A DNA stretch of 5,815 bases from an uncultured Oscillospiraceae bacterium. GTDB lineage: Bacteria > Bacillota > Clostridia > Oscillospirales > Oscillospiraceae. The position numbers and the translations under genes are program-made. Under the pieces are notes generated by a model. The model was given only the letters and a program-made list of their open reading frames with translations. It did not search any database and was not told the origin of the DNA. Shown in pieces: positions 1,863 to 5,815 of this stretch (within the stretch, counting starts at the first letter, position 1; each line of letters begins with the position of its first letter). The DNA lies in NCBI GenBank assembly GCA_934515035.1, contig CAKSXP010000127.1:1-5815 (forward strand), written 5' to 3'.

Positions 1863-3143
1863 TCAGTTAAGCTCCGCCCGGAATGTTATCCGGTCTCCGT
1901 CCAGCTTTGCCGAGATGTGCCCCCTGTGGCCCTCCGCGATGCCGCGGGCGATGGAGAGCCCTATGCCGAAGCCGCCGTTCCCGCTGCGGGAGGAGTCGGC
2001 CCGGTAGAACCGGTCGAAAAGCCTGGCGGTGTCAATTGGTTGGGAAACGTCACAGCGATTGGAGGACAGCAATACCACGCCCCTGCGGCTTTTTTCCAGA
2101 GAGAGACGGACCGGCGTGCCCGGCAGGGCGTATTTGACCGCGTTGTCCAGCAGAATGGACACGAGCTGGCGAACGGAGTATTCGTCGCCGCAATAGATCA
2201 GGTCCGGCGCAACGGAGAGCTCAAGCGCATGTCCGTTTTCCGCAGCAAAGTCCCGGAAGGACTCCGCCGTCTCCCTGACTGTGTCGCTGACGGGGAAATC
2301 CGCCATATTCATGGGGGATTCATCCTCATCTATGCGGGAAAGAGTTACAAGCGAGTTGACCAGACTGGTGAGCTTTTCCGTCTGACCAAGGGCCTTGTCG
2401 ATCCATTTCTGCTTGCCGGTCTCCATCTCCAGCACGCGCAGGCTCGTTGCGATGACGGTGATGGGCGTTTTCAGCTCGTGGCTTGCGTCGGTTATGAACT
2501 GCTTCTGCCGTTCCGCACTGCGCACGACGGGGTCGATGGCCCGGCGGGAGAGCAGCAGAACGAGAAGCAGCACGAGCAGGATGCAGGCGGCGTCCGCCGC
2601 AAGGGACCAGACCAGCACGAGGCGGACCGCTCGCATCTCCTGATAACAGTCGAGGAATACGGCCATATAACCCTCGCCGTCCGGAGTTACGAGAAATTTG
2701 TAATTTCCGGTGAAGCCGCGTCCTTCGCCGCGGCGGAGCGCGGCGGCGAGATAGTCGGCTGCGTCCTCTTCCGTGACCGCGGCGATCTTGTCCAGCTCCG
2801 CAGAGATGAGAGCGCCGTCACCGCTGCATCGGAGGACGAAAAACCGGGTGGAGAATGCCGCCTCCGGACCGAAGGGGTCGTTTCTGCGCCCGCCGGGCTG
2901 CACCGGCGCGGCATCTTTCGGCTCCGGGGGCGTCTCGCCCTCGCCCGACGGGGCGGGCACGGATTCGCCGCCCGGCATGGGCAGCGTGCCGTGGTTTTCC
3001 GCGATGCGGTCGAGCATCTCGTTTAAGTCAGAATTGGTGGAGAGAAAGTTCGCGCCGTTTAAGATGAGCGTCAGCAGAAGCATGACCGCCGTGACTGAGA
3101 GCATCGTTATGCGGATAAAGCGCGTGCGCAGCTTTTTTATCAT
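1863..3143 (-). CDS. Membrane sensor histidine kinase of an OmpR-type two-component system
   Basis: A 426-residue kinase that should autophosphorylate on His and pass phosphate to the regulator encoded just upstream. The order is: a membrane helix at about 12-34; an extracytoplasmic region of about 140 residues; a second helix at about 173-198; HisKA with the phospho-acceptor H222 in SHELKTP; and HATPase_c with its N-box in LLDNAVKY (N334) and the G2 box GFGIGLS at 391-397. The G1 box (usually DxGxG) is replaced by SSNRCDVSQPIDTARLFDRF, a variant I associate with some Clostridial kinases. No HAMP domain is evident between helix 2 and HisKA. The outer region starts with a Pro/Gly/Glu-rich stretch at about 54-90, then a compact fold resembling those of related clostridial sensors; the signal is unknown. 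The start overlaps the regulator stop as ATGA, and the site GGAGGAGGAG (3149-3158) lies inside the regulator's terminal Glu codons, so the two are translationally coupled. Confidence 0.93.
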   Translation of the reverse strand: MIKKLRTRFIRITMLSVTAVMLLLTLILNGANFLSTNSDLNEMLDRIAENHGTLPMPGGESVPAPSGEGETPPEPKDAAPVQPGGRRNDPFGPEAAFSTRFFVLRCSGDGALISAELDKIAAVTEEDAADYLAAALRRGEGRGFTGNYKFLVTPDGEGYMAVFLDCYQEMRAVRLVLVWSLAADAACILLVLLLVLLLSRRAIDPVVRSAERQKQFITDASHELKTPITVIATSLRVLEMETGKQKWIDKALGQTEKLTSLVNSLVTLSRIDEDESPMNMADFPVSDTVRETAESFRDFAAENGHALELSVAPDLIYCGDEYSVRQLVSILLDNAVKYALPGTPVRLSLEKSRRGVVLLSSNRCDVSQPIDTARLFDRFYRADSSRSGNGGFGIGLSIARGIAEGHRGHISAKLDGDRITFRAELN

Positions 3144-3817
3144 GCCTGCTCCTCCTCCAGTACATAGCCGAGCCCGCGGTTGGCGCGCAGCGTCAGCGCG
3201 GAGCCGATCTGGCGCAGCTTTTTGCGCAGATTGGAGATGTTTACCCAGACGACGTTGATCTCCGCTTCGTTATCCCAGCCCCAGACCTTTTCCATGATGC
3301 GCTCCGCGGAAAACACCTGCCGCGGAGCGCGGAGGAAGAGCTCCATCACCTGATATTCACGCCCGCTCAGGCGAACGGCTTTTTCCCCGCAGCGGAGCTC
3401 TCCGCTCGCGGGATCGAGCGAGAGATCGCCGCAGGTCAGCAGACTCGGCTGATACGCCTCGCTCCGGCGCAGAATGGCGCGAACGCGGCTGATGAGCTCG
3501 TCCGGGTCAAAGGGCTTCGGCAGGTAGTCATCCGCACCGGCGTTGAAGCCGGTGATGCGGTCGTCCTTCCGGCCCTTGGCGGTCAGCATCATTATAGGCG
3601 CCTTGACGCCCTCGCTCCGAAGCCTTTCCAGCACCTGGATGCCATCCATCTTCGGCATCATCACGTCCAGAATGATGGCGTCATAGTCGCCGGTCATGGC
3701 GTATTCATAGGCGTCGGAGCCGTTGTGTACGGCGTCCACGGTGAAGTGATTTTTTTCGAAAAAGACGGTCAGAGCCTCGGCAAGGTCGAGTTCGTCCTCG
3801 GCAATGAGAAGTTTCAT
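3140..3817 (-). CDS. OmpR/PhoB-family response regulator
   Basis: A 225-residue two-domain transcription factor. The receiver domain (about 1-118) shows the acidic pocket E7-D8, the phospho-acceptor D51 in ILDVMMPKMDG, T79 and K101 in PKPF. The winged-helix DNA-binding domain (about 127-219) shows LSGREYQVMELFL, the recognition-helix run NVVWVNISNLRKKL and the wing RANRGLGYVL. All catalytic residues are present, so phosphorylation by the adjacent kinase is expected. The start ATG at 3817 has only a modest GGAG (3830-3833), 12 nt away. Transcription probably starts from the promoter at 3860-3888, giving a leader of about 36 nt. By family, it should bind direct hexamer repeats with an 11-bp period. 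Such repeats occur in front of both the polyphosphate polymerase and the lipoprotein genes but not in front of this gene, so those are its inferred targets. Confidence 0.95.
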   Translation of the reverse strand: MKLLIAEDELDLAEALTVFFEKNHFTVDAVHNGSDAYEYAMTGDYDAIILDVMMPKMDGIQVLERLRSEGVKAPIMMLTAKGRKDDRITGFNAGADDYLPKPFDPDELISRVRAILRRSEAYQPSLLTCGDLSLDPASGELRCGEKAVRLSGREYQVMELFLRAPRQVFSAERIMEKVWGWDNEAEINVVWVNISNLRKKLRQIGSALTLRANRGLGYVLEEEQA

Positions 3818-3859: not shown

Positions 3860-3888
3860 AGTATAGGAAAAACCGGCGGGAAAATCAA
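3860..3888 (-). promoter_or_regulatory. Sigma-A-like promoter of the two-component operon
   Basis: On the minus strand TTGATT (3883-3888) and TATACT (3860-3865) are separated by exactly 17 bp (3866-3882). They match the TTGACA/TATAAT consensus at 4 and 5 of 6 positions. Transcription would begin near 3853, about 36 nt before the regulator ATG. The -35 element sits inside the loop of the terminator hairpin of the preceding operon. Confidence 0.7.
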
Positions 3889-3896
3889 CCGCCGGT
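3868..3896 (-). terminator. Intrinsic terminator of the polymerase/DUF4956 operon
   Basis: A perfect 8-bp GC-rich stem, ACCGGCGG (3872-3879) with CCGCCGGT (3889-3896), has a 9-nt loop. On the minus strand it ends in a run of five Ts (3868-3872). It begins 7 nt past the DUF4956 stop codon. On the plus strand it is followed by GTTCTTTTT, so it may also work weakly the other way. Confidence 0.85.
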
Positions 3897-3903
3897 GTTC
3901 TTT

Positions 3904-4569
3904 TTAAAGGCTCTCTCGCGTGCTCTCCCGCCCGCAGCTGATGTTCAGATTGCCGTTGCGGCAGCGCAGAGCGTCCAGAAACTCCTTCGGAACAGTCCCG
4001 CCGGGAAGAACGACGCGGTATTCCAGCTCGTAGAGCGTGCCCATGTTACTGGTCTTGATCCTGACAAGCTCGTGAGAGCGTGTGTACCGGGCGAAAAGAT
4101 CGTCGAAAAGCCCGTCATAGTCGAGGTTTTCCGGAATGGTGATCTTCAGCACGCGCTCGTCCGCGCCGCGCTGGCCGAAGCGGAGCGCCGTGAGCGCGAA
4201 CAGTGCGCCGCCGATGAGCACAAAGGCGAGCAGCGCAAGACCGATATAGCCCATTCCGGTCGCAAGGCCGATGGCCATGGCGAGCAGCAATACGCCGATC
4301 TCCCGCGCGGTGCCGGGAGCGGAGCGGAAGCGCACTAGCCCGAACGCGCCCGCCACGGCGACGCCCGCGCCGAGGTTGCCGTTGACGAGCATGATGACGA
4401 CCTGCACGGCCGCGGGCAATATCGCAAGCGTGACGGCGAAGCTCTGGGTCGAGCGGGAGCGGAACGACCCGACGAACGCGGCGCCGATCCCGAGCGCCAG
4501 CGAAACGGCGGAGCAGATGAGAAAGGCGGATAGCGTCAGTCCCTCCGCGGGAATTATAGAGTTAAGCAC
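3904..4569 (-). CDS. DUF4956-family membrane protein, partner of the polyphosphate polymerase
   Basis: A 221-residue membrane protein of the DUF4956 family, at the family's usual length. Hydrophobic segments lie at about 12-35, 43-63, 66-78 (short) plus 91-107, and 109-130. The conserved signature GLVRFRSAPGTAREIG (77-92) sits between them. A soluble C-terminal domain of about 90 residues (LKITIPENLDYDGLF onward) should be cytoplasmic. DUF4956 proteins are known mainly by genomic association with bacterial VTC-domain proteins; their biochemical role is not established to my knowledge. By analogy with the yeast VTC complex, where the polymerase is tied to a membrane channel, this one might anchor the polymerase or translocate its product; that is inference. 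The start is GTG 4567-4569 with AAGGAGG (4579-4585) 9 nt upstream. It overlaps the polymerase gene by 8 bp, indicating coupled translation. The stop runs straight into the terminator. Confidence 0.9.
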   Translation of the reverse strand: MLNSIIPAEGLTLSAFLICSAVSLALGIGAAFVGSFRSRSTQSFAVTLAILPAAVQVVIMLVNGNLGAGVAVAGAFGLVRFRSAPGTAREIGVLLLAMAIGLATGMGYIGLALLAFVLIGGALFALTALRFGQRGADERVLKITIPENLDYDGLFDDLFARYTRSHELVRIKTSNMGTLYELEYRVVLPGGTVPKEFLDALRCRNGNLNISCGRESTRESL

Positions 4570-5287
4570 AGCAGGCAGCCTCCTTCGAGTTAAAATACCG
4601 GTTTAAGATGTGCGTTTTATAAAATGTGCCGTATTTGGAAAAGGTGCCGGGGAAGGCTCCGGCCTCCGTCAGCAGACGGCTGAGCCAGAGCGGAGCCGAG
4701 CGGAGAAACTTGATCTCCATCAGCACCGTGTCGGGCGGCAATATCGCTGTGCCGTAGTCCCCGGCACACAGGTCCGCGTTTTCGTCCCGGCAGCGCAGAC
4801 CGGTGTCGAACGTGATGCGCATTTCCGGGTCCTCCTGTCCGGCGAAGGCGAGACGGTCATAGCCTATGAAAACCTTTGGCTCCGTGTGATAAAACGACTG
4901 GAACCACGCGATCTCCTGCCCGATCTGCCCGCTCGGAGGTATCTCGCCGCGCAGGAAGGCAGATGCTTCCGCCGCGCCCATCGTGACGCGCCGCTTATAC
5001 ACCACGCCGTCGAACTTTTTCTTAAGCTCCACGAAAACGCGGCCGTCCTCTGCCGGAACGCCGTAGCTGCGCACACGGAGCTTTTCCTTATACACCGGCT
5101 TTTCCAGCGAGGCGCGCACGAGCCGCCAGTCCGGCGTGTCGTAGTAGACGCTGCAAATGGTGTATTGCCCGTATTCATCCGGAACCATGTGGGCGCGCAT
5201 ATTATCAATAATGTATTCCTGCTGTGCGCGGGTGAGGATATATTTCTTTTCATAGCGCTCGAAGCAGCACTGTATTTTTTCGGCCAT
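4562..5287 (-). CDS. VTC-domain polyphosphate polymerase
   Basis: A 241-residue single-domain VTC protein. Its family (CYTH-like tunnel fold, named for yeast Vtc4) builds polyphosphate from the terminal phosphate of ATP in the cytoplasm. Tunnel-lining charged motifs are visible in order: FERYEKKY (9-16), VYYDTPDW (47-54), KEKLRVRSYG (67-76), VELKKKFDGVVYKRR (86-100), the acidic MEIKF (190-194, E191 as probable metal ligand) and FSKYGTFYK (216-224). It has no membrane segment or SPX domain, as is usual for bacterial stand-alone forms that sit beside a DUF4956 protein. The start is ATG 5285-5287, preceded by AAGGAGGTG (5295-5303); an in-frame ATG 39 bp further upstream would place that ribosome site inside the gene and is less likely. 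The last residues, KEAACCA, overlap the start of DUF4956. A phosphate-polymer role is well supported by family; activity and partner control are not shown. Confidence 0.92.
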   Translation of the reverse strand: MAEKIQCCFERYEKKYILTRAQQEYIIDNMRAHMVPDEYGQYTICSVYYDTPDWRLVRASLEKPVYKEKLRVRSYGVPAEDGRVFVELKKKFDGVVYKRRVTMGAAEASAFLRGEIPPSGQIGQEIAWFQSFYHTEPKVFIGYDRLAFAGQEDPEMRITFDTGLRCRDENADLCAGDYGTAILPPDTVLMEIKFLRSAPLWLSRLLTEAGAFPGTFSKYGTFYKTHILNRYFNSKEAACCA

Positions 5288-5294
5288 AGCCCGG

Positions 5295-5303
5295 CACCTC
5301 CTT
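5295..5303 (-). promoter_or_regulatory. Ribosome binding site deciding the polymerase start
   Basis: AAGGAGGTG on the minus strand is a near-perfect anti-16S match 7 nt before ATG 5287 (the GGAGG core is 9 nt away). It selects this ATG over the in-frame ATG at 5326. Confidence 0.85.
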
Positions 5304-5314
5304 AGCTTGCACCG

Positions 5315-5347
5315 ATGGTAATCCATGAACCTAAAAGCAACTTAAAA
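5315..5347 (-). promoter_or_regulatory. Putative activated promoter of the polymerase/DUF4956 operon
   Basis: The minus strand carries an 18-bp box (5330-5347) built from TTTAAG and TTTTAG around TTGC and ending in GG. It matches the box on the opposite strand (5364-5381) at 14 of 18 positions. Counting from the end of the second hexamer (5331), exactly 10 bp separate it from TACCAT (5315-5320), a -10-like hexamer matching at 4 of 6 positions. No normal -35 is present; the box occupies its place. The start would be near 5308, giving a leader of about 20 nt that just includes the ribosome site. The box is seen; the regulator binding it is inferred. Confidence 0.5.
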
Positions 5348-5363
5348 AAACTTTTCGCAAAAT

Positions 5364-5396
5364 CTTTAGCTTGCCTTTAGGTACATATCTTATGAT
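5364..5396 (+). promoter_or_regulatory. Putative activated promoter of the lipoprotein gene
   Basis: CTTTAG (5364-5369), CTTGC, then CTTTAG (5375-5380) form an exact direct hexamer repeat with an 11-bp period. Exactly 10 bp later is TATGAT (5391-5396), a 5 of 6 match to the -10 consensus. A -35 at 17 bp is missing; the nearest TTGCCT (5371-5376) is only 14 bp away. This geometry resembles PhoB and PhoP promoters, where the activator's repeat replaces the -35. The adjacent OmpR-type regulator is the natural candidate activator. Confidence 0.55.
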
Positions 5397-5405
5397 GCGG
5401 TCATA

Positions 5406-5422
5406 GCCGGGGGAGACCCGGC
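5406..5422 (+). ncRNA. Short hairpin in the lipoprotein 5' leader
   Basis: GCCGGG (5406-5411) and CCCGGC (5417-5422) form a perfect 6-bp GC stem with the loop GGAGA, just after the predicted transcription start near 5403. It has no T-run, so it is not a terminator. It could stabilise the messenger or be part of a small leader structure, and the loop GGAGA could in principle mimic a ribosome site. The leader is about 69 nt, with the real ribosome site AAGGAGG at 5454-5460. I could not match it to any known riboswitch. Confidence 0.35.
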
Positions 5423-5471
5423 AAAAGTGAAATAAGAATACTTCGATCATAAAAAGGAGGCATCCTTCATC

Positions 5472-5815
5472 ATGAAAAACGACAGCACCAAAAAGATACT
5501 TTCCATTTTATGCGCCGCGTCGCTGGCGTTCTCCCTCGCGGCCTGCGGAACGGGAAGCAGTACGGCTGAGGCCGAGACCGAGAACCCGAGTCAGACCGAG
5601 AACGGCGCGCCGGACGATATGCAGACCCCTCCGGACAAACCGGACGGCAGCCAGACCCCACCGGATAAGCCGGATGGCGAGGCTCCCGGCGGTCCGGGAG
5701 GTCCCGGCGGACAACCCGGCGGCTTTGGCGGCAGCGGCGAGGTCACGCAGGGCGACAGCGCCAACACCATCAACGAAAACGGCGCTTACACGGGCGAGAG
5801 CTACACCTCCACCGG
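5472..5815 (+). CDS. Surface lipoprotein with Pro/Gly-rich N-terminus (partial, runs off the right edge)
   Basis: The first 114 residues of a larger exported protein. A short signal peptide (KNDSTKK then a hydrophobic core) ends in the lipobox LAAC, with C25 as the predicted lipidated residue, so it should be tethered to the outer face of the membrane. A low-complexity spacer follows: Glu/Thr/Asn-rich (about 31-50), two copies of QTPPDKPDG (51-59 and 61-69), then a Gly/Pro stretch (71-88). The folded part begins near 91, with NTINENGAYTGESYTST resembling, from memory, the entry to beta-helix domains of clostridial carbohydrate-binding surface proteins (Cthe_2159/PF14262-like); this is tentative because the domain is cut off. 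The start ATG 5472 has AAGGAGG 11 nt upstream. The gene diverges from the polymerase operon and seems to share its operator type. Function is unknown; a surface adhesin or glycan binder is a reasonable guess. Confidence 0.8.
   Translation, partial: MKNDSTKKILSILCAASLAFSLAACGTGSSTAEAETENPSQTENGAPDDMQTPPDKPDGSQTPPDKPDGEAPGGPGGPGGQPGGFGGSGEVTQGDSANTINENGAYTGESYTST
5622..5678 (+). repeat. Two-copy 30-bp tandem repeat coding QTPPDKPDG
   Basis: Two 27-bp units (5622-5648 and 5652-5678), separated by one Ser codon, encode the identical nonapeptide QTPPDKPDG. The units differ at a few third codon positions, which suggests the peptide is selected rather than being a very recent duplication. It forms part of the spacer that lifts the lipoprotein's folded domain off the membrane. 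Confidence 0.85.

Follow-up and report, generated by a model that had tools for sequence, protein, structure and literature searches.

Known Promoters and Loci of Similar Design

PhoB of Escherichia coli and PhoP of Bacillus subtilis act from repeats with an 11-bp period that lie upstream of the -10 element, and their hexamers differ from those found in the window, the whole stretch of 5,815 nucleotides analysed here. A preliminary description of this DNA had taken these two regulators as its precedent; the 11-bp repeats upstream of the -10 are indeed a common trait, but the promoters of the Streptococcus regulator CiaR are closer, and CiaR is the closest published precedent found. As far as the cited text goes, CiaR promoters carry TTTAAG-N5-TTTAAG, followed after 10 bp by the -10 and then by a C just before the transcription start, and CiaR of S. 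pneumoniae controls 15 promoters (PMC3091779). Similarly, in the relevant section on BAS0540, a CiaR homologue, TTTAAG-N5-TTTAAG boxes are gel-shifted, one of which lies before the regulator's own gene (PMC4938410). Both the hexamer and the targets described there for BAS0540 are other than those of the window.

In yeast, the VTC complex moves polyphosphate into the vacuole; to our knowledge, no role has been established for the bacterial pair of VTC and DUF4956 genes. Gram-positive Pel clusters include accessory cotH, poly-phosphate polymerase, DUF4956 and DUF4832 genes, thus resembling the window in holding VTC-type and DUF4956 genes together, whereas the passages on this accessory set describe no dedicated regulator or box (PMC7112168). 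VTC-domain and CotH genes also occur together in the locus described for C. perfringens (PMC2879425), and a VTC protein is included in a proteome table of S. sanguinis (PMC5817204). Searches of the CC-licensed PMC literature turned up no description of a regulon joining VTC-DUF4956, lipoprotein or Cthe_2159 proteins and a regulator.

Two Probable Divergent Operator-Promoters

Within the 184-bp intergenic region that separates the VTC-domain gene from the lipoprotein-like gene, the preliminary description had noticed an 18-bp box once on each strand, identical at 14 of 18 positions, and both copies are present where they had been placed. The plus-strand copy is, as claimed, an exact CTTTAG-N5-CTTTAG at the lipoprotein promoter (5364-5380), followed by the -10 TATGAT (5391-5396); the minus-strand copy, at the VTC promoter, reads TTTTAA-N5-TTTTAG (5331-5347) and is followed by the -10 TACCAT (5315-5320). 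The gap from box to -10 had been given as 10 bp, which is right, and equal on both strands, when measured from the 17-bp core, whereas counting from the 18-bp box leaves 9 bp. The spacer that separates both operators spans 5348-5363, with a box-to-box distance of 33. The predicted transcription starts proposed beforehand, 5403 on the plus strand and 5308 on the minus strand, fall exactly on the A of a conserved CA. A site of this kind appeared on neither strand in 20,000 shuffles of the intergenic region, nor in any of 300 Markov-simulated windows.

The hexamers and the 10-bp spacing are kept in relatives, so the proposal survives the conservation check that the preliminary description had named as able to refute it. 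Indeed, 22 VTC-side and 21 lipoprotein-side sites give the consensus CTTTAGGTTcTCTTTAGGTT, followed by 7 bp and then by the -10, whose own consensus is TATaCT on the VTC side and a TAcAAT-like hexamer on the lipoprotein side. In particular, the first T, the A and the final T of the -10 are found in 21, 22 and 22 of the 22 VTC-side sites and in 21, 21 and 18 of the 21 lipoprotein-side sites, while seven bases past the -10 the conserved CA appears on the VTC side (C 16/22, A 20/22) as well as on the lipoprotein side (C 17/21, A 15/21). Since the sites for both logos were chosen by their hexamers alone, ignoring the -10, the fixed-offset -10 and the CA are independent of the selection. The box-to-box distance is 32 or 33 in 15/21 loci, 23 in three and 69 in three, and thus the boxes behave as two operators rather than as one.

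The likeness to CiaR-type promoters, within what their cited description covers, includes the head-to-tail hexamers, the 11-bp period, the -10 placed ten bp past the second hexamer and the C directly before the start, which in the window is a predicted one. The recognition helices, VVEVYVSKVRKKL in CiaR and VVWVNISNLRKKL in the window, are identical at 8 of 13 letters, the window departing at W and N among others. The hexamers of the window (CTTTAG, TTTTAA and TTTTAG) also differ from the TTTAAG of CiaR; the window is therefore CiaR-like in its working and does not carry a CiaR box. Its predicted targets, VTC-DUF4956 and the lipoprotein, also set it apart from CiaR. The exact CiaR-type arrangement TTTAAG-N5-TTTAAG-N10 is carried by the VTC relatives L048, L056, L059 and L062.

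We consider it likely, with good confidence, that both boxes are the operators of divergent promoters, to which the response regulator encoded at 3140-3817 would bind, probably activating VTC-DUF4956 and the lipoprotein gene together. The regulator would bind each box as a head-to-tail dimer and would be phosphorylated by its partner kinase, and the phosphorylated form would activate, not repress, both promoters, so that both targets would be turned on together. As in PhoB- and CiaR-type promoters, the box lies where a -35 would otherwise stand; the earlier statement that neither promoter has a -35 agrees with the lack of any detectable sigma-70-type -35/-10 pair in 5200-5815.

The regulator and kinase genes seem to be driven by an ordinary promoter of their own, as the gap between the DUF4956 and regulator genes holds a probable separate promoter on the minus strand, TTGATT-17-TATACT (3860-3888), and the likely consequence is a basal expression of the regulator. 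A -35/-10 match of at least 9/12 is found in this gap in 18/19 loci, although in 5/19 shuffles equal the promoter score in 15% or more. The gap of the window also contains a terminator-like hairpin on the minus strand, with a stem of 8 bp, a loop of 9 and then T5 (3872-3896); it was missed by a search restricted to loops of 3-8, and a script finds terminator-like hairpins in this gap in 2/19 loci. The hairpin is GC-rich, and the -35 of the regulator promoter sits in its loop. Because promoter and hairpin stand before the regulator gene, the reading of VTC, DUF4956, regulator and kinase as one autoregulated operon was dropped as a firm claim. Feedback by read-through from the VTC promoter is possible; it would add to the basal level supplied by TTGATT-17-TATACT and, in the window, would have to pass the hairpin.

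The same architecture bears on the sign of the control. The regulator might bind both boxes and repress, with phosphorylation either releasing it or strengthening the repression. The boxes overlap the -35 region, and reporter promoters were repressed by C. difficile RR_1586, likewise OmpR-type and associated with an 11-nt repeat, in the experiments presented (PMC6222199). However, the two promoters of the window have no -35 to block, whereas the promoter of the regulator genes has one, and the constant distance of 10 bp from box to -10 fits an activator in contact with RNA polymerase, besides being the same as in the CiaR layout cited above; repression is thus unlikely, and activation of both genes is retained as the preferred reading.

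Association of the Box with the Neighbouring Regulator

The window regulator (3140-3817, minus strand) combines a receiver domain (PF00072, 108.1 bits) with a Trans_reg_C winged helix (PF00486, 71.7 bits), as in OmpR/PhoB-type proteins, and its recognition helix is EINVVWVNISNLRKKL. Its 177.6 bits lie below the NCBIfam cutoff for PhoB equivalog status (296.2), and the CiaR model is absent among the 25 NCBIfam matches listed out of 92. The gene at 1863-3143 on the same strand encodes a sensor histidine kinase (PF00512 and PF02518), the partner of the regulator.

The loci compared came from an alignment of 25 VTC proteins, at least 80 loci from genome contigs and 30 from one family, amounting to 111 entries with the window included. 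Wherever a regulator with 65% or more identity to that of the window comes after VTC-DUF4956, the box lies upstream of VTC (20/20 distinct loci, window included), and in 19/20 of these loci a second copy faces a divergent lipoprotein-like gene. VTC loci lacking that regulator match the box in 2/51 testable cases (L006 and L062), and the L062 match is actually a TTTAAG-kind site. The association of box and regulator gives a Fisher p of 1e-15, a statistic that ignores relatedness. As for the 39 remaining entries, 36 stop before the regulator could be judged and three have too little upstream DNA; L081, a second copy of L001, was left out of the counts. The claim that one OmpR-type regulator acts on both genes thus finds support in the comparison: the box is kept in relatives that carry the same neighbouring regulator, and this regulator therefore likely switches both genes together.

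Four of the 36 early-ending loci have a box (L030, L038, L088 and L092, with L038 and L088 from one genome). Two genomes with such box-bearing loci hold the regulator on another contig (G188, 72%; G211, 66%), while in the box-bearing draft G411 a search at E 1e-60 found none. Among the 80 loci listed, L001 is the closest VTC relative and has a single box and no divergent gene; since its VTC gene directly follows another gene, a score of 13/15 on the opposite strand was not counted as a second operator. Clostridia commonly carry VTC relatives, which at E 0.001 or better occur in 195/398 genomes of one family; plasmids gave four distant VTC matches, and among the viral contigs searched none was confirmed.

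Scanning 300 and 299 family genomes for the exact pattern returned seven sites directly before response regulator genes. Six of these seven regulators are 47-53% identical to that of the window and agree with it in the helix core, V(V/I)WVHISN, whereas the seventh, at L187, has the helix EIIAIYISYL. A tree of 43 regulator sequences places six sister and 19 VTC-operon regulators in one clade with support 0.99; five of the six sister sequences in the tree have the box before their own gene, whereas the box of L159 faces away. The arrangement CTTTAG-N5-CTTTAG-N10-TAnnnT lies just before the own regulator gene in L160, L164, L165, L166, L168 and L189 (site at about 1501), and in L163, L169, L172 and L197 similar sites are found ahead of ABC-transporter-like genes. 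The box-preceded sister regulators look like a larger clostridial regulator class.

The existence of such relatives makes it conceivable that a paralogue with the same recognition helix, rather than the neighbour, is the main controller. The core VVWVHISN is common to six sister-clade regulators, with I in place of the second V in one of them, and each of their genes is preceded by the same box, although these regulators were located via the box itself, and L006 has a box with a best regulator in its genome of only 49% identity (helix VVWVHLSA). Against this, the box accompanies the adjacent regulator gene in all 20 loci, and a match of at least 65% was found in 14/17 genomes searched (3/4 and 11/13), exactly one in each, which makes control by a paralogue quite improbable; the neighbouring regulator is kept as the predicted activator.

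Scans by pattern alone gave no enrichment over a reversed control (16 versus 15 hits in the first, rarer in the second). An origin of the boxes as chance repeats in the spacer has a negligible probability and is refuted by conservation: isolated exact matches arise by chance in genome scans (12/300 and 24/299, with the reversed control about equal or more), yet here the sites stand at one place in 20 loci, in both orientations in 19, and the shuffles gave none.

Recognition Helix and Operator Letters

Full-length regulators of the window's group share the helix EINVVWVHISNLRKKL or nearly so, the window having N for H. When helices and operators are compared, leaving out three loci with less than 200 bp upstream, the 19/19 loci with a VVWVHISN helix score 13 or more of 15 for the CTTTAG box, and the 11/11 loci with an NNVEAYIS helix score 15 of 15 for the TTTCAG or TTTAAG box. 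In particular, VTC loci with a divergent regulator whose helix is NNVEAYISFLRKK or nearly so have TTTCAG-N5-TTTCAG in the spacer (7/7), and those with the regulator helix NNVEAYISFLRRK have TTTAAG-N5-TTTAAG (4/4), in each case 10 bp before TAnnnT. Neither box type occurs in VTC loci with a TDDTVRRL helix (0/10). A divergent regulator with the helix TDDTVRRLRQKL and no box of these kinds is seen in L018, L025, L026, L027, L031, L032, L034, L043, L067 and L084. Because the helix classes are clades, the covariation of helix and operator stands for two or three events.

Inside the NNVE class, a finer rule by which K goes with TTTCAG and R with TTTAAG holds for 11/11 adjacent pairs and is broken by L051/G855, where TTTAAG goes with K; L058 is mixed. 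The regulator of L094 has the helix VVWVYISY, yet no box. No regulator was recognised nearby in 67 VTC loci, among which 15, several of them incomplete, have a strong box. Nine of these 15, together with G666, G531 and G803, make up a further set of 12 genomes, all of them box-bearing, in which a VTC or Cthe_2159 gene is preceded by a box while the VTC operon lacks a regulator; the other six strong-box loci comprise five in genomes already searched, plus L107. Taking the W class as expected for a CTTTAG-like box and the E-Y class for TTTCAG or TTTAAG, the expected broad class is present in 11 of the 12, loosely in G577, G531 and G1010, and the box-bearing draft G946 gave no regulator of the expected class. 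This test is weakened since several of its genomes (G531, G666) hold both helix classes.

In L044, L050, L089 and L090, TTTCAG-type boxes face both VTC and a divergent regulator gene, with one half-site altered in one box of each pair. As the second box faces the regulator gene, the regulator in these four loci may control itself. Possible TTCAAT-type repeats with an 11-bp period lie before VTC in L010 and L019, whose regulators are about 40% identical to that of the window.

Predicted Target Genes in the Window and Beyond

The first predicted target is the VTC-domain gene (4562-5287, minus strand), polyphosphate-polymerase-like, whose protein matches PF09359 with 138 bits against a cutoff of 23. 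A profile of 25 VTC relatives matches yeast Vtc4 structures at E 1.2e-07, while the window protein searched as a single sequence does not; its assignment to polyphosphate synthesis is a predicted function that draws on the VTC domain and this profile match. The DUF4956 gene (3904-4569, minus strand; PF16316, 47.8 bits) overlaps the VTC gene, and the two would by inference form one transcription unit. Pel and CotH proteins were absent among the seven window proteins scanned, and Rfam gave no match in the window at gathering score.

The second predicted target is the lipoprotein-like gene (5472-5815, plus strand), which has a Pro/Gly-rich linker and is cut at the window end. The visible part, 114 aa, lacks PF14262 (the Cthe_2159 family) and matches the fragments P0244 and P0246 at 44-45%. 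Since the continuation of these fragments matches L142 (48-52%, E 2e-10 and 2e-09) and leaves Cthe_2159 proteins unmatched, the window lipoprotein seems to be of the L142 kind. Cthe_2159 proteins are described, in the portion of the source that concerns them, as beta-helix proteins that bind cellulose and polygalacturonic acid (PMC6712302).

Across 23 genomes selected because their VTC locus has a box, 31/35 exact matches fall at the VTC locus, and the four elsewhere belong to L142 (L142-kind lipoprotein-like), L143 (secreted Cthe_2159) and L141 and L146 (RelA/SpoT-like). The last two, from related genomes, carry the same 33-bp operator-promoter (L141:6181 and L146:760), placed 179 bp ahead of a gene judged by eye to be RelA/SpoT-like; this site might link the regulon to (p)ppGpp. 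Among 26 one-mismatch sites outside VTC loci, two picked by eye for consensus-like flanks precede L144, an L142 relative with 78% identity, and L145, which looks like L143. In a Pfam scan of the target proteins of four relatives, PF14262 was found in L143, L147 and L153, and L142 had no Pfam match.

According to tblastn on the first 80 loci, 14/15 loci of the CTTTAG class have a divergent gene of the Cthe_2159-like or L142-like type no more than 500 bp from VTC. Of the other loci, 25/48, 7/9 and 3/8 have one inside 5 kb, which outside the TDDTVRRL class is mostly on the same strand as VTC. The pairing of these genes with VTC is therefore wider than this switch. The regulon itself looks like one VTC unit with one or more surface proteins.

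Possible Meaning for Clostridia

All in all, comparison of these sequences points to a two-component regulon, predicted and conserved, that is built like an ordinary activator system and whose targets are poorly understood. A broader idea, offered as a speculation with a small chance of being right, is that it would serve a bacterial system for surface polyphosphate as its dedicated switch: VTC and DUF4956 would produce a polyphosphate-like polyanion and transport it out of the cell, where secreted proteins of the Cthe_2159 and L142 kinds, expressed alongside, would hold the polyanion at the surface; such switches would form a clostridial family whose operator could be read from the helix (W-H/N for CTTTAG, E-Y for TTTCAG or TTTAAG).

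A dedicated two-component regulon would give a handle on these genes, as the signal of the kinase would tell when the cell needs the VTC-DUF4956 pair, and the surface protein under the same predicted control hints at where the pair's product acts. The match between helix and operator would allow target prediction for many unstudied clostridial regulators.
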